From: Psychrobacter sp. M13
GTDB taxonomy: Bacteria > Pseudomonadota > Gammaproteobacteria > Pseudomonadales > Moraxellaceae
Length of the DNA stretch: 64,000 nt
Assembly (NCBI RefSeq): GCF_030718935.1
Contig: NZ_CP132194.1
Coordinates: 2,046,001 to 2,110,000, forward strand
Direction of reading: 5' to 3'
Part shown: positions 35,509 through 44,069 of the stretch, piece after piece
Numbering within the stretch: the first letter of the stretch is position 1
How the letters are laid out: each line of letters starts with the position of its first letter
The notes under the pieces: generated by a model
Seen by the model: the letters and a program-made list of their open reading frames with translations, nothing else
What the model was told of the DNA's origin: nothing
Database searches by the model: none
Made by a program: the position numbers and the translations under genes

Positions 35509-35549
35509 AATAAAGGTAACAAGTGCGTCAAATACTTGTTACCTTTATT
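35509..35549 (-). terminator. Terminator at the end of rtcR
   Basis: AATAAAGGTAACAAGT and ACTTGTTACCTTTATT are perfect 16-base complements with a 9-base loop. The hairpin overlaps the rtcR stop codon and separates rtcR from the UbiE-like gene. Confidence 0.88.
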
Positions 35550-37230
35550 AAAACGATAACTCATCAAACTTTAATCCAAACTTCATCAGATACTTACGTA
35601 AACGATCGCTGTCATTAGGGTTTTTGAGTTTATTGCGGGAGTTGGCATAGAGGTAGCGCCCTGCTGCTGCTTGATTTTTATGATCAATACAAACATTAAT
35701 AACATAAGCCAATTGTATAGCGTCAAAAGGATCGATAGACTCAAGCATTTCTTCGTCAAGATATTGGCTTAAAAGCTCATGGCTACCCTGCTCTAATAGT
35801 TCACTATCTAACCCTGTTTCAGGTTTATTTTTACTTAGGCTATTTTTAGATTGTATGTCTATCGATGATGACCATAGCTCAGTCAAACGTTCAATCTCTG
35901 CCTGCACATCCACTGCTCTAATGACTTTACTATCGGCAAGTGTGGTTAAGCGAATCATACTAGCAGTCAAATCTCGAAAGTTACCTTGCCATGTTGCCTG
36001 CGGACTAATTGCAAAGTCCTCATACGACTGTCGCGCACTCAGTTCAAAACGATATTGCTGCTGCTGCTCACTGCCTAGGCGTGCCAACTCATAATCGATA
36101 TTAGCGGGCAAATCCTCTAACCGATCCTTAAGCGATGGCAAAAAGAACGTCCACGTATTCAACCGCGCAAACAAATCCGCACGAAACTCGCCATTGGCGA
36201 CTGCTTGGCGCAAGTCCTTATTGGTGCCTGCCATTAACTGAAACGAGACGTTAATCGGCGTATCACTACCTAATGGATAAAAGCGCTGTTCCTCTAGTGC
36301 GGTCAATAGCATGGCTTGCTCATCAAGACCCAGCTCGCCTATTTCATCTAAGAATAACAGACCACCATCGGCAGATTTTAGCAGCCCTTCCCGACTAGCA
36401 GCAGCGCCTGTAAACGCACCCTTCACATGACCGAATAATACACTCATTGCGGTATCACCACGTAGCGTTGCGCAATTAACCTCAACGAATTTATCGAGCG
36501 CATATTTAGCTTGGGTAGCGCTATCGGCTTTCGCCTTTTTAATGGCATAGATTTGGCTGGCCAGCTGCGACTTACCTGCCCCTGTCGCACCCATTAATAG
36601 TATTGGCGCTGTTGAACGAGTGGCGACCTTTTCAATATCAGATATCAATTGCTTATAAGCAGCATTTTGGGTAACTAGATTGGCTTGCAATGTTTGCCAA
36701 TGCTGTGCCTTTTCCGCCTCAAAACGCGCCCGTAAGCTGTCATAACGCGAAACGTCTAAATCGATAACTTGATAACGGCCTTGCGGGTCCGCTTGGTCAG
36801 GCCTAGGACAAGGCGAGGTTTGAATAAAGTTCGCAGGAATAAATCCCGCTTCAACTAATAAAAACCAGCAAATCTGCGCTACGTGAGTGCCCGTGGTGAG
36901 ATGCAGTAGATAATCGGTCTGCGCATTGAAGTTAAAGCTTGCGACAAAGTCATAAAGTTCGGCATAGACATCAGCGAAATCCCACGGGCTTGATAGCGCC
37001 ACATGATGACCAATTACTTGCGTTTGCGGACTAACTCTCGCTACGTCATCAACCACTATCTTAAACAGTCGCTTATCACGCCTGCTATAGAGAATGTGCA
37101 ACTCATCAACGAGTAGTTCATCATGCAAGCCTAAGCTAACTGTCGGACGCCAGCGCTGCCAACGCTTATCATTAAATCCGTTATCTAAGGTGGTGCCGAG
37201 AAAGCCTATAACGGCGGTTTTATTAGTCAT
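35548..37230 (-). CDS. rtcR: RtcR, sigma-54-dependent activator of RNA repair genes
   Basis: The 560-residue protein has an N-terminal RtcR sensory domain, CARF-like (about residues 1-185, with TAVIGFLGTTLDNGFND at the start). The AAA+ sigma-54 interaction domain follows: Walker A GATGAGKSQLASQ near 215, the GAFTGA loop as KGAFTGAAASREG near 270, and Walker B LLFLDEIGEL near 290. The C-terminal region provides DNA binding. RtcR activates rtcBA when RNA is damaged. It is divergent from rtcB, which has a sigma-54 promoter. Confidence 0.96.
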   Translation of the reverse strand: MTNKTAVIGFLGTTLDNGFNDKRWQRWRPTVSLGLHDELLVDELHILYSRRDKRLFKIVVDDVARVSPQTQVIGHHVALSSPWDFADVYAELYDFVASFNFNAQTDYLLHLTTGTHVAQICWFLLVEAGFIPANFIQTSPCPRPDQADPQGRYQVIDLDVSRYDSLRARFEAEKAQHWQTLQANLVTQNAAYKQLISDIEKVATRSTAPILLMGATGAGKSQLASQIYAIKKAKADSATQAKYALDKFVEVNCATLRGDTAMSVLFGHVKGAFTGAAASREGLLKSADGGLLFLDEIGELGLDEQAMLLTALEEQRFYPLGSDTPINVSFQLMAGTNKDLRQAVANGEFRADLFARLNTWTFFLPSLKDRLEDLPANIDYELARLGSEQQQQYRFELSARQSYEDFAISPQATWQGNFRDLTASMIRLTTLADSKVIRAVDVQAEIERLTELWSSSIDIQSKNSLSKNKPETGLDSELLEQGSHELLSQYLDEEMLESIDPFDAIQLAYVINVCIDHKNQAAAGRYLYANSRNKLKNPNDSDRLRKYLMKFGLKFDELSF

Positions 37231-37410: not shown

Positions 37411-37426
37411 TGGCACACCCTTAGCA
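37411..37426 (+). promoter_or_regulatory. Sigma-54 (-24/-12) promoter of rtcB
   Basis: TGGCACACCCTTAGCA matches the -24 TGGCAC and -12 GC elements with correct 12-base spacing of GG to GC. It lies 48 bases before the rtcB ATG, opposite the activator rtcR. The AT-rich 37231-37410 stretch is where RtcR enhancer sites should be; I see no unambiguous palindrome there. Confidence 0.9.
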
Positions 37427-37473: not shown

Positions 37474-38694
37474 ATGCAACCCTCTAACCATAATGTAATC
37501 CAAGAAGGTGGTACGCCGATTCGTCTATGGACGCAAGGTGTCCCTGTCGAAGACCAAGCTCGCGAGCAGCTGATTAATACCTCAAAAATGCCGTTTATCT
37601 ATAAATGGATGGCAGTGATGCCCGATGTACATTTGGGTATGGGTGCGACTATCGGTAGCGTGATTCCGACCAAAGAAGCGATTATCCCAGCAGCGGTCGG
37701 TGTCGATATCGGTTGTGGCATGATGGCAGTGCAAACCACGCTGAATGCCAATGATTTGCCTGATAACTTGCTGGGTCTACGTACCGAGCTTGAAAAAGCC
37801 ATTCCGCACGGACGTACGCCACGTGGACGTCGCGATAAAGGTTCATGGACAAATCCTGATGATACGGTAATGAATGGCTGGGGAACGCTAGCGGATGACT
37901 TTAACTATCTATGCCAAAAGCATCCGCGTCTAAAAAATACCAATAACCTAAAGCATTTGGGAACGCTAGGTACTGGTAACCACTTTGTCGAAGTATGCTT
38001 GGATGAGACCAATCAAGTATGGATTATGCTGCATTCAGGCTCACGCGGTGTCGGTAACGCCATCGGTCGCTATTTTATTGAGCTAGCCCGTGAGGATATG
38101 CGTAAGTGGTTTATCAACTTGCCTGATAAAGATTTGGCTTATTTTGCAGAAGGTACGGAACACTTTGATGACTATTGGTTTGCCGTGGGTTGGGCGCAGC
38201 GTTTTGCCTTTAAAAACCGTGAAATCATGATGGAAAACGCGATTAAAGCGCTCCGCCAAATCATCACTAAGCCTTTTGATGCCAAGGTTAAAGCAGTGAA
38301 CTGTCACCATAACTATGTGGAAAAAGAAGAGCATTACGGCGAATCCGTGTTTGTCACTCGTAAAGGCGCAGTGCGTGCCCGCATTGGTGAATACGGTATC
38401 ATCCCAGGCTCAATGGGCGCAAAATCCTTTATCGTACGTGGTAAAGGCAACGAAGAATCGTTCTGCTCCTGCTCACATGGCGCAGGTCGGGTGATGTCAA
38501 GGACGCAAGCGAAAAAGCAATTTACCGTAGCGGATCAAATTGCCCAAACCGAAGGCGTAGAATGCCGTAAAGATGCCTCAGTCATTGATGAAATTCCGGC
38601 AGCATATAAGAACATCGATGACGTAATGCACGCTCAACGTGACTTGGTGGAAATAGTACATACCTTGCGGCAGGTGGTTTGTGTTAAAGGTTAA
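37474..38694 (+). CDS. rtcB: RNA-splicing ligase RtcB
   Basis: RtcB joins 2',3'-cyclic phosphate RNA ends to 5'-OH ends using GTP and Mn2+. The 406 residues contain all key motifs: HLGMGATIGSVIPT, GVDIGCGM with the metal-binding Cys, LGTGNHFVEV, HSGSRGVGN, and the catalytic His in SCSHGAGRVMSR. Length fits the bacterial RtcB1 group. AAGGAG lies nine bases before the ATG. Transcription by sigma-54 from 37411 is strongly supported. Its usual partner rtcA is 4.3 kb away, beyond several inserted genes. Confidence 0.97.
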   Translation: MQPSNHNVIQEGGTPIRLWTQGVPVEDQAREQLINTSKMPFIYKWMAVMPDVHLGMGATIGSVIPTKEAIIPAAVGVDIGCGMMAVQTTLNANDLPDNLLGLRTELEKAIPHGRTPRGRRDKGSWTNPDDTVMNGWGTLADDFNYLCQKHPRLKNTNNLKHLGTLGTGNHFVEVCLDETNQVWIMLHSGSRGVGNAIGRYFIELAREDMRKWFINLPDKDLAYFAEGTEHFDDYWFAVGWAQRFAFKNREIMMENAIKALRQIITKPFDAKVKAVNCHHNYVEKEEHYGESVFVTRKGAVRARIGEYGIIPGSMGAKSFIVRGKGNEESFCSCSHGAGRVMSRTQAKKQFTVADQIAQTEGVECRKDASVIDEIPAAYKNIDDVMHAQRDLVEIVHTLRQVVCVKG

Positions 38695-39461: not shown

Positions 39462-40031
39462 ATGAAACATGCTCAAACTATAGAAATCATAAGAAAACTT
39501 AAAGCCAAAAAAGTTAAATTCGAACATGGACTATCTGATGAAGAAGTGCAACAAATTGAAAATAAATTCAATTTAAAGTTTCCTCCTGATCTACTGTATT
39601 TTTTGCAAAAAGAGCTGCCTGTATCTAATGATTTTGTCAACTGGCGATCAGGTCTAAAGTCAAAAAGTGAGGCCATTGCTATCCGCAAAAAACTGGACTG
39701 GCCTTTTGATGGAATGGTATTTGATATAGAGAAAAATGGATTTTGGATAGAGGAATGGGGCACAAAGTCTGATAATGTTAGCGAAAATATAGCTACTGCT
39801 AAACGTCATTATAAAACTTATCCTAAAATGATACCGATTCGCTCGCATCGCTATATTCCTAGTAAACCTTATAAAGCTGCTAACCCTGTCTTTTCTATTT
39901 ATCAGACAGACATCATTTACTATGGATATGATTTAGCACACTATCTTGCTAATGAGTTTCATTTTGAGTTATCGAATGATTTTATAAAACTAGACAAACC
40001 AAGACATATTAAGTTTTGGGGTGATTTTTAA
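39462..40031 (+). CDS. SMI1/KNR4 (SUKH) family protein
   Basis: The 189-residue protein shows the SUKH N-terminal signature GLSDEEVQQIENKFNLKFP-PDLLYFL near residues 23-49, and later hydrophobic strands including PVFSIYQTDIIYYGYDLAHYLANEF. SUKH proteins are common immunity factors against polymorphic toxins, many of which are nucleases, though some have other roles. AAAGGA precedes the ATG. It is followed after 26 bases by the truncated copy of the DIP1984 gene. No matching toxin is in the window. Confidence 0.85.
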   Translation: MKHAQTIEIIRKLKAKKVKFEHGLSDEEVQQIENKFNLKFPPDLLYFLQKELPVSNDFVNWRSGLKSKSEAIAIRKKLDWPFDGMVFDIEKNGFWIEEWGTKSDNVSENIATAKRHYKTYPKMIPIRSHRYIPSKPYKAANPVFSIYQTDIIYYGYDLAHYLANEFHFELSNDFIKLDKPRHIKFWGDF

Positions 40032-40057: not shown

Positions 40058-40126
40058 ATGAAACTATCAGAAGCCCTATTTATTCGTAGCGATATGCAAA
40101 AAAAGCTCGCTCAGCTTAAAGACTAA
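40058..40126 (+). pseudogene. Truncated 5' copy of the DIP1984-family gene
   Basis: This 22-codon frame encodes MKLSEALFIRSDMQKKLAQL then two more residues and a stop. It matches the intact gene at 41613 (MKLAEALLIRSDMQKKLAQL). The match includes the AATAAGAGAGAAC ribosome-site region upstream and ends abruptly after codon 21. About eight of 63 coding bases differ, nearly all at synonymous sites. That pattern suggests the fragment came from a functional homologue in another lineage rather than from a recent local duplication. Confidence 0.88.
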
Positions 40127-40160
40127 TTGAAAAATGTAACTTTGTCGCCTATTGGCTAAT

Positions 40161-41012: not shown

Positions 41013-41465
41013 TTAACGACAGCTAAAATTGTAGCCGTTCAAATTAATACTACCGCCTGCTTTGATGCTATTCCCAATACTAGCTCCACCAGTAGAGGAA
41101 CAAACTAAATTGTATCTCTTGCCCTCGCTATTGTTAAAGCTAGAGATAGGTATTAGACAAGCGCTACCTTTTTTACCATAGACATTGACACCTTCAGTCT
41201 CGCAAGGATTGGTTACAGAAGGATCAATAGGATTAGCTGGATTAGCATCAGTGGCGATTAGCTTGCAGTTAGCAGCGCAGGTTTTATCGTCTTCACATAG
41301 ACTATTTGCTTCTCTAGTAGAACACATATATCTATTACCGCTTACTAATGTCTTGTATCCAACGAAGCCGTTGTTGCTGGCATCTGATGAACTATCACTA
41401 TCACCACCACAGGCCGACAACACCAATGCAGAGCAAATGACAAATGAGCTGAGAAATTTTTTCAA
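41013..41465 (-). CDS. Hypothetical cysteine-rich lipoprotein
   Basis: The 150-residue protein begins with a lipoprotein signal peptide ending in lipobox LVLSACGGD. After a Ser/Asp linker it has several cysteines (CSTREANSLCEDDKTCAANC) and a final Cys near the C-terminus, suggesting disulfides in a secreted domain. Family unknown. It is upstream of the membrane protein on the same strand and may share its promoter. Confidence 0.7.
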   Translation of the reverse strand: MKKFLSSFVICSALVLSACGGDSDSSSDASNNGFVGYKTLVSGNRYMCSTREANSLCEDDKTCAANCKLIATDANPANPIDPSVTNPCETEGVNVYGKKGSACLIPISSFNNSEGKRYNLVCSSTGGASIGNSIKAGGSINLNGYNFSCR

Positions 41466-41612
41466 TTTACAATCCTTATAAAAAGTAAAACAACCAAAAT
41501 TATGTTGATTATACTTCTAAAATTTTTTAAATTAAACGTTATTCTTAATTTAATTTTTATATCAAAAATTATTATCAAGTAAAAGAATTTTTAATAATAA
41601 GAGAGAACTAAA

Positions 41613-42071
41613 ATGAAACTCGCAGAAGCCCTACTAATCCGTAGCGATATGCAAAAAAAGCTTGCCCAACTTAAAGGTCGTATCAAAGCCAATGTCAAAG
41701 TTCAAGAAGGCGATACGCCATCTGAGGACCCAAATGAGCTTATGATTGATGCTAGCCAAATTATTAGTGAATTGAGTCATTTAATAGAGCGGATTCATCG
41801 GACTAATGCTATTGCCAAAACTGATAACGGTCAGTCGATGCTGACGCTACTCGTTGAGCGCGATACCTTAGAGATGCGCCATAAGCTATTGATCGATTCA
41901 ATTGAAGCCACGCAGACTGAGGCGGATCGTTATAGCCATCGTGAGATCAAATGGAACATCATAGTCTCAGTCGCAGGATTGCAAAAGCAAGCCGATGATA
42001 TCGCCATGAAGCTGCGTAAAATTAACATTGTCATTCAGTCCAATAACTGGCAGATTGACCTTGTTGAATAG
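41613..42071 (+). CDS. DIP1984-family protein of unknown function
   Basis: The 152-residue protein is predicted to be almost entirely helical, with MKLAEALLIRSDMQKKLAQLK at the N-terminus followed by an acidic segment EGDTPSEDPNEL. It fits the DIP1984-like family, whose biochemical role is unknown to me. There is no signal peptide. AGAGAG lies before the ATG. It follows the reverse-strand inserts and precedes the structured RNA candidate. Its repeated association with rtcB (a truncated copy also follows the SUKH gene) suggests a link to RNA repair; this is inference. Confidence 0.85.
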   Translation: MKLAEALLIRSDMQKKLAQLKGRIKANVKVQEGDTPSEDPNELMIDASQIISELSHLIERIHRTNAIAKTDNGQSMLTLLVERDTLEMRHKLLIDSIEATQTEADRYSHREIKWNIIVSVAGLQKQADDIAMKLRKINIVIQSNNWQIDLVE

Positions 42072-42101
42072 ATAGCTTATTCGATTTATTTTAGCTGTTA
42101 T

Positions 42102-42118
42102 GGTGCTTAAAAAGCACC
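42102..42118 (+). promoter_or_regulatory. Short perfect hairpin after the DIP1984 gene
   Basis: GGTGCTT-AAA-AAGCACC forms a 7-bp stem without a T run. It is nested inside a wider inverted repeat, TTATTCGA (42077-42084) and TCGAATAA (42133-42140). It may be an RNA-processing or partial-termination site just upstream of the structured RNA candidate. Confidence 0.5.
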
Positions 42119-42203
42119 CTACAACAACCTTATCGAATAACTATTTTAAACCTTATATTTTAGAACTTTCTATGTACTTATTTTAAGGGCATAGAATATC
42201 CCT

Positions 42204-42382
42204 TTGGAATCGATTGGGCGAATGTCAGACCCCGTATCCCCACAGCAGGGGGTTGAAAACATACTGTAGTGGCTACTGTGCGTTGCGGGCAGACGTTTTA
42301 TTTACCATTAATGTCCCGTACCCGTCACAGCTAACAAGGTACTATTTAGACCTTACCACCAGACACTGACAGTCGATTTCAA
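42204..42382 (+). ncRNA. Structured RNA candidate in the RNA-repair locus (Y-RNA-like architecture)
   Basis: Bases 42204-42214 pair with 42372-42382 (11 bp including two G-U). Directly above, TGTCAG 42223-42228 pairs with CTGACA 42366-42371. Between them is an 8-base bulge TGGGCGAA on the 5' strand only. The enclosed region holds four hairpins: CCCC/GGGG around 42238-42252, GTAG/CTAC around 42267-42276, ACGTT/AATGT with GGG/CCC around 42287-42318, and AAGGT/ACCTT at 42336-42354. Bacterial Y RNAs have paired ends with a bulged stem and occur in rtcBA operons, usually beside the Ro homologue rsr. No rsr is in this window, so the Y-RNA identity is inference. Confidence 0.55.
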
Positions 42383-42404
42383 TTTTATTTATCAGGCGCT
42401 TACT

Positions 42405-42935
42405 ATGAAAAATTTAGACTACTTATCTGGAGTGTTAGATAGCATAGCTATTCAATCTGAGATAAGTGATGAAGATTGCTCATGGACAGAATTGACAGTG
42501 CTCAGCGTTAACGATACTAATTTAACTGACGAAGAATCACTAAAGTCTGCTTATTTAGACTTTTACTCCGATTGTTATGACGTCAACGAAAGAGAAAGTC
42601 TCATCTCAGAGGATTGGCAGATCGTACAATCCTCTATAAGCAAAGGCACTCCTATAGACTCACTAGAGCAACTCATTGATAAGATGATAGCTTATGATAC
42701 ACGATTCACTGTTAGTGCATTTGATAAGAAAAGTCAGTTATTTATTTTCGATAATGACCGCGTAGAAGTTTTCAGAGATTTTTTAGTTAAAACGTTCGTT
42801 GAAACTTTAGGTGAAATTACAAGAATAACTGAATATGCGATGTATCCTCCTTTTGAGGTAGGTCTCAGTTGGCATTATTATTTGGTAGTAAGTAAACAGA
42901 GAACAGTATTTATTGAGTGGCTAGGCTTTCATTAA
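42405..42935 (+). CDS. Hypothetical protein upstream of rtcA
   Basis: The 176-residue acidic protein starts MKNLDYLSGVLDSIAIQSE and has no signal peptide or membrane helix. Near residue 112 it has SQLFIFDNDRVEVF and ends FIEWLGFH. I do not recognise the family; size, acidity and cytoplasmic nature are like immunity proteins, but that is weak evidence. It ends about 40 bases before rtcA and begins about 20 bases after the structured RNA candidate. Confidence 0.65.
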   Translation: MKNLDYLSGVLDSIAIQSEISDEDCSWTELTVLSVNDTNLTDEESLKSAYLDFYSDCYDVNERESLISEDWQIVQSSISKGTPIDSLEQLIDKMIAYDTRFTVSAFDKKSQLFIFDNDRVEVFRDFLVKTFVETLGEITRITEYAMYPPFEVGLSWHYYLVVSKQRTVFIEWLGFH

Positions 42936-42974
42936 CAATTGGCCTTTATAACATTTTTCAGAAGAATCATTTTT

Positions 42975-44069
42975 ATGTCAGTACCTAAAATCAAAACTCT
43001 AAAAATCGACGGCAGCACAGGCGAAGGCGGCGGACAGATTATTCGTACTGCCTTATCATTATCTATGCTTACGGGTATTCCTATTGAAATCACTAATATT
43101 CGAGCAGGTCGCGCCAAATCTGGTCTGATGCGTCAACACTTAGTATGTGTGCAAGCCGCGCAACAGATCTCAAATGCCAGCGTTACAGGTGCGCATTTAG
43201 GTAGTACAGCATTGAGCTTTACGCCAAATAGCATCAAGTCAGGCGACTATAGCTTTGATATTGGCTCGGCAGGTAGTACGACGCTAGTGCTACAAACCCT
43301 GCTCCCTGCCCTCCTATTTACTAATACAGATAGCTCTGCCCAATCAACAGTAACCATTAGAGGCGGTACGCATAATCCACTAGCACCAACGTCGGACTTT
43401 TTACAGCTAGCCTTCGTGCCAGCACTGGCGAAACTCGGTATGCAAGTCGATGTCCAATTGATCAAAGCAGGGTTTGCACCTATTGGTGGTGGTGAAATTA
43501 CAGCAACCATCATGCCGTTTATGCGCCGTGCTGATACCGCACCGTTTGAGCTTACCGAGCGTGGTAAATTGACGAATATTGAGCTAGTTGCCAGCATCGT
43601 TAATCTCGACTATGACATCTGTACCCGCGAGCTTGCCAGCGCAAAATCAGTACTTATTGAAGCAGGTATTAATGAGGCAATAATAACGACTCAGTCTAAT
43701 AAATTACAAGGTATTGGAGAAGGTAACAGTTGCTATGCGGTAGTGACTTATCAAATGGTCGATAGCCAGTCATCTCATAGCGAGGTTTTTACTTTACTCG
43801 GCGCTAAGCGCACTTCAGCGGAGAAGATGGGCAATCGCTTGGCAGGCTTAGTTAAGCGTTATGTGTTCAAAACGGATGCGCTAGTCGATGAATATCTAAC
43901 CGATCAGCTGTTATTACCCTTGGCGCTAGCAGGTGGTGGCGAGTTTACTGCGCGAGTGATTAGTCAGCATGCCGAAACCCAGGCTTGGCTGATTGAGCAG
44001 TTCTTATCTGTTGATATTAAATTTGAGCAGATTGCTGAGAATAAAACTTTGGTGAGGGTGATTGATTAG
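42975..44069 (+). CDS. rtcA: RNA 3'-terminal phosphate cyclase
   Basis: RtcA converts RNA 3'-phosphate ends to 2',3'-cyclic phosphates using ATP. Start ATG 42975 (364 residues) is chosen because KTLKIDGSTGEGGGQIIRT is the conserved N-terminus; an upstream frame from 42939 lacks support. Other marks are GAHLGSTALSF, FDIGSAGSTTLVLQTLLPA, GGGE and the C-terminal LAGGGEFTARVISQHAETQ with the catalytic His. It normally follows rtcB directly; here the rtcB-rtcA distance is 4.3 kb. Confidence 0.96.
   Translation: MSVPKIKTLKIDGSTGEGGGQIIRTALSLSMLTGIPIEITNIRAGRAKSGLMRQHLVCVQAAQQISNASVTGAHLGSTALSFTPNSIKSGDYSFDIGSAGSTTLVLQTLLPALLFTNTDSSAQSTVTIRGGTHNPLAPTSDFLQLAFVPALAKLGMQVDVQLIKAGFAPIGGGEITATIMPFMRRADTAPFELTERGKLTNIELVASIVNLDYDICTRELASAKSVLIEAGINEAIITTQSNKLQGIGEGNSCYAVVTYQMVDSQSSHSEVFTLLGAKRTSAEKMGNRLAGLVKRYVFKTDALVDEYLTDQLLLPLALAGGGEFTARVISQHAETQAWLIEQFLSVDIKFEQIAENKTLVRVID

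Follow-up and report, generated by a model that had tools for sequence, protein, structure and literature searches.

A conserved structured RNA directly behind DIP1984-family genes, found within an rtcB-rtcA locus of Psychrobacter

The RNA described here lies in a 64,000-nt stretch of the Psychrobacter sp. M13 genome (the window), in a locus with the layout of RtcR-regulated rtcBA operons. The gene for RtcR, the sigma-54 activator of RNA repair operons (35548-37230, minus strand; NF038308 over cut-off), is divergent from and beside rtcB, the RNA ligase gene (37474-38694, plus strand; Pfam search), and rtcA, the RNA 3'-phosphate cyclase gene, is present at 42975-44069 on the plus strand with an in-frame ATG at 42975 (ORF list and Pfam search). 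A sigma-54-like -24/-12 site with one mismatch was found at 37411-37426, 48 bp before rtcB; since the window holds 17 such sites where 11.8 are expected, it is not significant by count, though its position would suit control by RtcR. At 39462-40031, the second ORF downstream of rtcB gives a weak, sub-threshold SMI1/KNR4 (SUKH) match. A truncated second DIP1984 start (40059-40127, about 80% identical over 25 codons) lies upstream of the intact gene, from which two minus-strand genes separate it; the same layout, with the main copy broken, occurs in the same-species genome G027 (L089). The intact DIP1984-family gene (PF20935 DUF6847/NF038048) occupies 41613-42071 on the plus strand and encodes a protein of 152 aa, the putative partner of the RNA, which scores 169.1 bits with NF038048 (cut-off 70) and 162.4 bits with PF20935 (cut-off 27). 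The RNA (42204-42382, plus strand) is located between this gene and the ORF at 42405-42935, which encodes 176 aa without a Pfam match and precedes rtcA. The RtcA of the window is 98% identical to that of G027 and only 33-49% identical to the other Psychrobacter RtcA proteins compared (loci L038-L084); because RtcB is 84-97% identical across the same loci, rtcA may have been exchanged here.

The original prediction of a structured RNA in this non-coding segment was borne out, and the conserved element has exactly the limits 42204 and 42382 on the plus strand. The segment is intergenic, and a coding function was ruled out, as no frame is open in more than two sequences of any of the three alignments used below. 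The plus strand folds with a minimum free energy of -51.5 kcal/mol (z -1.93), and 9 of 200 shuffles fold as well or better; for the minus strand, z is -0.31 and 68 of 200 shuffles are as good or better. Folding energy by itself is modest evidence for a structured RNA, and it is conservation that decides. The RNA is present in a single copy in its own genome, where the nine other blastn matches span only 14-22 nt with E above 2. Between the DIP1984 stop codon and the RNA, a hairpin TCTATG/CATAGA (42169-42195) can be read from the alignment, and many Psychrobacter copies (uncounted) have other, also pairing sequences at this place. A terminator-like site was not found in 41400-43000 of the window, and the only promoter-like sequence on the plus strand ahead of the RNA is within the DIP1984 gene.

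The conserved structure was derived from three alignments. For Psychrobacter, 25 of 51 copies were kept after removal of those at least 93% identical to a kept one, and seven loci with partial or split matches (L086-L091, L093) had been omitted beforehand. The Acinetobacter set consists of 18 sequences (17 from Acinetobacter and one viral contig), and the Bacillota alignment holds 20 of 42 Bacillota loci, picked by eye as alignable. The ends of the RNA pair, as predicted, in a closing stem (P1) with arms of 13 nt at 42204-42216 and 42370-42382; its 13 pairs are paired in 96.6% of the cells in Psychrobacter, and three of them are changed on both sides. A second stem of five pairs, P2, has the sequence [A/G]TGTC/GACAC and is formed by 42222-42226 (ATGTC here and GTGTC in most aligned copies) with 42362-42366 (GACAC). 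Pairing in P2 amounts to 98.4% among Psychrobacter copies and to 97.8% for the Acinetobacter set; in the window copy, its first pair is an A.C mismatch. P1 and P2 enclose a 5x3 internal loop, GGCGA (42217-42221) opposite TGA (42367-42369), for which the consensus in most groups is [A/G]G[C/T]GA x T[G/A][A/G]. The third base of the 5' side and the middle base of the 3' side change jointly in L189, L190 and L196 (C with G, T with A), the exceptions being L191, L166 and L168, which are altered on the 5' side only. A kink-turn reading of this loop by eye is not claimed, as the required register is off by one base. Thus the bulged closing stem proposed originally stands in so far as the paired ends carry a conserved internal loop, and its version with an 8-base bulge and an inner 6-bp stem (TGTCAG/CTGACA) does not. 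Compensatory changes, which had been proposed as a check on both closing stems, are present in P1; the 6-bp stem is 97.3% paired in Psychrobacter without covariation and 49.1% paired in the Acinetobacter set, and was dropped as a conserved element because it is unsupported outside Psychrobacter.

Four hairpins had been predicted inside P2. A better description from the alignments is one pseudoknot followed by a hairpin that takes part in a second one, after which comes an AC-rich 3' stretch for which no conserved pairs are predicted. Pseudoknot 1 is formed by CCCC (42230-42233) with GGGG (42249-42252), which is helix 3 (99.0% paired), and by the stem CCAC-A-GCAG (42240-42248) with CTGT-A-GTGG (42264-42272), which is helix 4 and has three pairs with double changes. 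An H-type pseudoknot after P2 was recognised by eye in Psychrobacter, Acinetobacter, Bacillota, Picosynechococcus, Mycolicibacterium and Enterococcus. Next in Psychrobacter is a hairpin, GCGTT (42280-42284) with GACGT (42292-42296), in which helix 5 changes from GC to AU and from UA to CG, and whose loop GGGCA (42287-42291) pairs downstream with TGTCC (42312-42316) as pseudoknot 2 (helix 6, 97.6% paired). Neither the CCCC/GGGG helix nor pseudoknot 2 has a double change in Psychrobacter; within this genus both predicted pairings rest on one-sided changes, and pseudoknot 1 also on its equivalents in the Acinetobacter and Bacillota sets. At the position of the Psychrobacter hairpin, many Bacillota copies have a D-arm-like hairpin together with a T-arm whose loop sequence resembles a T-loop, and the three arms (D, T and acceptor) are paired at 73.8-90.0% in the 20 Bacillota sequences. 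The T-arm motif occurs in 22 of 42 Bacillota, 2 of 8 other, 0 of 17 Acinetobacter and 0 of 45 Psychrobacter sequences (window included). A tRNA or tmRNA gene was rejected, since ARAGORN found none in 13 Bacillota loci.

Taken over all helices, the Psychrobacter alignment has 40 pairs, 97.5% paired and 10 with double changes (a number attained in none of 500 shuffles); the Bacillota alignment has 33 pairs, 81.9% paired and 18 with double changes (reached by 6 of 500), its helix 5 being just 50% paired, perhaps through misalignment of the pseudoknot. For the Acinetobacter set, the values are 28 pairs, 85.9% paired and 13 with double changes (reached by 21 of 500), and its number of pair types was reached by 186 of 500 shuffles. 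The covariation score is above all 500 shuffles in each of the three alignments, an excess that kinship among the sequences can also cause. The closing stem, the second stem and the two pseudoknots covary or stay paired. In the 3' part, the window copy has an AC-rich stretch (42319-42342) with AC at 7-nt spacing (TAC-CCGT-CAC-AGCT-AAC-AAGG-TAC), and ACCACC (42355-42360) stands just 5' of the 3' arm of P2. The latter appears as AC-N-ACC in most copies (22/25 Psychrobacter, 16/18 Acinetobacter-set and 18/20 Bacillota sequences). Over the 75 nt leading up to the last such motif, AC dinucleotides 7 nt apart number 58 against 8.6 in shuffles for Psychrobacter, 48 against 6.7 for the Acinetobacter set and 44 against 9.0 for Bacillota, where the shuffles preserve single-base composition only, the sequences are related and other lags (3, 13, 14) are also raised. 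The 7-nt spacing hints at a repeated protein contact.

Within Psychrobacter, the RNA is linked to the DIP1984 gene. The RNA is present in 49 of 105 Psychrobacter genomes by blastn. When the same 105 genomes were searched with the DIP1984 profile and with a covariance model trained on Psychrobacter alone (R1), and the coordinates were matched up, every one of the 52 above-cut-off DIP1984 genes was directly followed, on the same strand, by the RNA, at a distance of 25-237 nt from the profile match. Counted per genome, 45 have both, none has an above-cut-off DIP1984 gene only, 4 have the RNA only and 56 have neither. RNA and above-cut-off gene are therefore present or absent together save in the four RNA-only genomes, which are remnants: G008, G013 and G027 have sub-threshold DIP1984 pieces, and G085 has no match. 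The flanks of the Psychrobacter matches gave the same picture, with copies just 3' of DIP1984 on the same strand, with or without nearby rtcB or rtcA, and a few partial matches (L086-L090) as the exceptions. In G076, two tandem RNA copies (L042:6082-6302 and L042:6379-6590, matching the window copy at 71% and 85%) lie behind one DIP1984 gene. The adjoining DIP1984-family gene, already pointed out in the original prediction, is thus confirmed as the relevant neighbour.

The association with the rtc genes is looser. We examined 52 Psychrobacter context loci whose DIP1984 match spans the greater part of the gene (51 with intact DIP1984 and the remnant L088; window excluded), and rtcB or rtcA is found in the fetched flank at 28 of them, both at 22. 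At the other 24 neither is found in the fetched flank; five of these retain no more than a gltS-like gene, which elsewhere is a neighbour of the rtc locus, and 19 have none of these genes, among them near-identical copies in eight genomes, mostly on short contigs (L054-L058, L061-L063). Two Acinetobacter loci, L152 and L153, have the order rtcB, another gene, DIP1984, RNA and rtcA (with an extra small ORF in L152), and L154 has rtcB. The gene between rtcB and DIP1984 in L152 (L152:2444-3004) has a weak, sub-threshold HEPN_RiboL-PSP match. At 70 further loci, three of them from Psychrobacter, tblastn matched RtcB, RtcA or RtcR at only 3; the flanks of many of these loci are just 1.5-3 kb, and tblastn missed the rtcA of L152 and L153, which was found by Pfam. 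The proposal of a new RNA partner of the RtcBA system is therefore retained only in part. An rtcBA locus can contain the RNA, but the RNA is no dedicated partner of RtcBA, because it tracks DIP1984 into plasmids and contigs whose fetched flanks hold no rtcB or rtcA, and a link to rtcBA as such was rejected on this ground. The RNA belongs to the upstream DIP1984 (DUF6847) gene, not to rtcBA.

To follow the spread beyond the genus, we collected DIP1984 loci from Acinetobacter and other Pseudomonadota as well as from Bacillota, Cyanobacteriota and Actinomycetota. The profile is uncommon: among 398 Pseudomonadota genomes it exceeds its cut-off in 5 (two of these Psychrobacter), and among 398 genomes of the phylum to which Rossellomorea belongs, in 23. 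When the downstream DNA of the gathered loci was read, the same RNA architecture was seen. R1 was run on 63 loci, of which two Psychrobacter loci (L166, L168) were excluded, and it matches an RNA behind DIP1984 at 53 of the 61 loci outside Psychrobacter with E<=0.005, in Pseudomonadota, Bacillota, Cyanobacteriota and Actinomycetota, the places being checked by reading coordinates. The only remaining matches in the 63-locus search were two, with E 0.15 and 0.25. The eight loci missed by R1 were L181, L200, L202, L203, L205, L206, L218 and L237; a second model built from the 20 Bacillota sequences alone (R2) recovers L181, L200, L202, L206, L218 and L237, gives L205 at E 0.1-0.12 only and misses L203. 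In the reverse direction, searching the 64-kb window with R2 gives one match only, 42205-42381 (E 1.2e-4), in agreement with the R1 genome match at G000:C1:2088204-2088382, a copy that is in the R1 training set. R2 also matches all 7 Psychrobacter sources, one of which is the window, at E<0.001 and, among 8 Acinetobacter loci, 5 at E<=0.001, with L153 at 0.024, L155 at 0.039 and L152 at 0.41. It gives nothing at E<=1 for L201, L203, L204 or 12 divergent paralogue loci (L238-L249).

With a descriptor of the closing motif alone, a score of at least 20 was reached by 85 of 115 regions taken from the downstream side, by 0 of 114 from the upstream side and by 2 of 2300 shuffles, and the same picture was obtained at five other cut-offs from 16 to 26. 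It fails on 30 of the 115 at score 20, including the window copy because of its one A.C pair; the loci in the descriptor and R1 counts are not all independent (e.g. L173/L176 and L174/L220). The cross-phylum model matches outweigh the covariation score, because related sequences can also exceed shuffles. A homologous RNA with covarying stems thus lies just 3' of DIP1984, on the same strand, in at least four phyla. Terminator-like hairpins are found 150-400 nt past the stop codon in 20 of 67 non-Psychrobacter loci, compared with 3-6 in single-base shuffles. The loci L238-L249 (around positions 1501-1980 of each locus) are divergent DUF6847 paralogues from genomes of the order of Rossellomorea, which score 33-47 bits down to L249 and lower in the rows without loci; by eye, they have an RNA-like 3' stretch with AC repeats, to which L247 adds a closing stem and a terminator-like hairpin.

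Both gene and RNA are also carried by plasmids, in Psychrobacter (L219), Acinetobacter (L176), Enterococcus (L218), Picosynechococcus (L174, L220) and Mycolicibacterium (L217), and a Psychrobacter copy additional to the 52 context loci is on plasmid pYP14c. There are 373 plasmid records that match DIP1984, 344 of them from Acinetobacter; the one Acinetobacter plasmid whose RNA was checked is pAB0057 (L176), where it was found by R1 and by reading the downstream DNA. The DIP1984 protein itself was modelled with a pLDDT of 90.4 as four long helices. The structure search gave a single outstanding match, 3kdq, an uncharacterised family member with which the fold is shared, and no recognised RNA-binding fold. 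Pfam and NCBIfam profiles gave no toxin or nuclease family, and a catalytic HEPN-like R-x6-H motif noticed by eye was dropped because the H is T in 3kdq. The portions of the open-access literature searched, including the names DUF6847, PF20935, NF038048 and septicolysin, yielded no function or RNA association for the family.

Several explanations of the RNA can be weighed against these data. A diverged Y RNA bound by a Ro/Rsr protein, as originally suggested, has the paired ends with an internal loop, the rtcBA locus and the T-arm motif of the Bacillota copies in its favour. In addition, two Psychrobacter genomes (G077 and G078; L094, L095) have TROVE-family matches upstream of rtcB on the contig carrying the RNA, each of 28 bits over 82 of 442 positions. 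These are the sole TROVE-family matches in the 105 Psychrobacter genomes; the other 103 have none, whereas the RNA is present in 49 of the 105. The original observation that no rsr lies in the window extends to the whole of its own genome, where TROVE PF05731 has 0 matches (a Deinobacterium control was positive). YrlA RF02553 likewise has 0 matches in that genome at E<=0.001, with the control genomes giving below-cut-off matches in 7 of 14 and above-cut-off matches in none, so that no positive was among these controls. The Y RNA is thus rejected both by model and by partner; the absence of TROVE largely refutes this reading in Psychrobacter, and we regard it as very improbable. Other known families fared no better: the window locus had no Rfam match at gathering score or even at E<=10, and the loci of relatives, in gathering scans (8 + 10 loci) and permissive scans (two RNAs), gave only weak matches far below the cut-offs of the families, on which ground a known Rfam family was rejected; the same scans found a c-di-AMP riboswitch beyond the RNA in L206.

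The RNA could instead be a 3' UTR control element of the DIP1984 mRNA, which protects or times the mRNA or serves DIP1984 autoregulation, with no separate function. It is always behind the gene on the same strand in Psychrobacter, within the short distances given above, and no clear promoter stands between gene and RNA in the window. However, its size, two pseudoknots and four-phylum conservation seem, in our judgement, beyond the needs of an mRNA stabiliser, and the tandem copies after a single gene in G076 also speak against such an element, which we consider fairly unlikely. It is less probable still that DIP1984 is a toxin or defence effector with the RNA as antidote or sensor, the pair being kept by plasmids. 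An above-cut-off DIP1984 gene without the RNA was never seen (0/45 genomes), RNA remnants without such a gene exist (4/105), and the family is found in the plasmid records counted above, near toxin-antitoxin genes in two that were read. The protein, on the other hand, has neither a toxin or nuclease family nor an informative fold match, many Bacillota copies are on megabase contigs, and the RNA, which lies downstream and is almost without exception a single long copy, differs from the tandem repeats upstream of known type III toxins. A DNA element, i.e. a recombination site, an insertion remnant or a repeat, would suit the occurrence on plasmids, and the legend of a published figure describes the Acinetobacter DIP1984 gene ('sep') as drawn on plasmids made of dif modules. 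The element is a single copy in its own genome and strand-fixed behind one gene; because of the covariation and the fixed orientation, we find this explanation hardly credible.

We consider it reasonably probable that the DIP1984 gene and the structured RNA directly behind it are a two-part module working as a ribonucleoprotein. The RNA would be transcribed with or behind the DIP1984 gene, and its paired ends would hold it as a compact particle. The small helical DIP1984 protein may recognise the end structure, namely the [A/G]G[C/T]GA x TGA loop between P1 and P2, and as an oligomer perhaps also the 7-nt-spaced AC repeats. We infer both binding and function of the pair from these comparisons. 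More speculatively, the particle might handle damaged or structured RNA, with the pseudoknot/tRNA-like part as a docking site for an RNA-processing enzyme, and at rtcB-DIP1984-RNA-rtcA loci it might take the place that Rsr and YrlA RNA have in other RNA-repair operons; such a Ro/Y-like role in RNA repair is speculative and drawn by analogy. In its boldest form, which is tentative and on balance doubtful, DIP1984 would found a second Ro-like system, in which an oligomeric helical protein wraps the 7-nt AC array and clamps the [A/G]GCGA x TGA loop, the pseudoknot/tRNA-like body docks an RNA-processing enzyme, and the whole replaces Rsr-YrlA for broken tRNAs in rtcB-DIP1984-RNA-rtcA operons. Several points count against the ribonucleoprotein: a 3' UTR element would also account for the constant placement behind the gene, DIP1984 has no recognised RNA-binding fold, the T-arm is absent from the scanned Psychrobacter and Acinetobacter copies, and the window locus offers neither a terminator-like site in 41400-43000 nor, ahead of the RNA, a plus-strand promoter-like site outside the gene. 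The link to RNA repair is weakened because neither rtcB nor rtcA was found in the fetched flank at 24 of the 52 Psychrobacter loci, and because Rtc matches were obtained at only 3 of 70 further loci.

In conclusion, a structured RNA class that is matched by no Rfam scan is tied to DIP1984. A pseudoknotted RNA of about 180 nt that is conserved in four phyla and tied to a protein family without an assigned function is a rare find, and the DIP1984 family, which is named septicolysin or DIP1984 in hundreds of Acinetobacter plasmid records, gains a testable biochemical role. The arrangement further suggests that Rsr and Y RNA, the partners in some RNA-repair operons, have an alternative protein-RNA counterpart in others.

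Compared with known systems, the module shares some features with each and differs in others. The window gene is a full member of the DIP1984 family (DUF6847, PF20935, NF038048), often called 'septicolysin'. In the window, rtcR, rtcB and rtcA are all around the module, as in RtcR-rtcBA RNA repair operons, although almost half of the 52 Psychrobacter module loci (24) have no rtcB or rtcA in the fetched flank. In type III toxin-antitoxin systems, the antitoxin RNA consists of tandem repeats upstream of a ToxN-like nuclease. As in these ToxIN-like systems, a small protein gene stands beside a pseudoknotted RNA, also on plasmids; here, however, the RNA is downstream in 52 of 52 Psychrobacter cases, as one long copy with a tandem pair in one, and neither Pfam nor NCBIfam places DIP1984 in a known toxin family. 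YrlA, the bacterial Y RNA that tethers Rsr (Ro) to PNPase, is also alike in form. In the accounts of YrlA consulted (PMC8394870, PMC7790460), paired ends, a tRNA-like inner domain and an rtcBA neighbourhood are described; the DIP1984 RNA also has 5' and 3' ends that form a long stem, can sit in an rtcBA locus and, in many Bacillota copies, carries an inner D-arm-like hairpin and T-arm. The Ro-binding helix, as outlined for vertebrates (PMC4726728), is a 7-bp helix with a bulged C and a 3-nt bulge on the other strand, and its counterpart here would be the 5x3 loop GGCGA x TGA, a comparison with a vertebrate and not a bacterial description. Those YrlA accounts include neither a pseudoknot nor AC repeats, both of which are present in the DIP1984 RNA; its own genome has no TROVE protein and no YrlA covariance match, and in place of a TROVE/vWA protein such as Rsr, its partner gene codes for a small helical protein.
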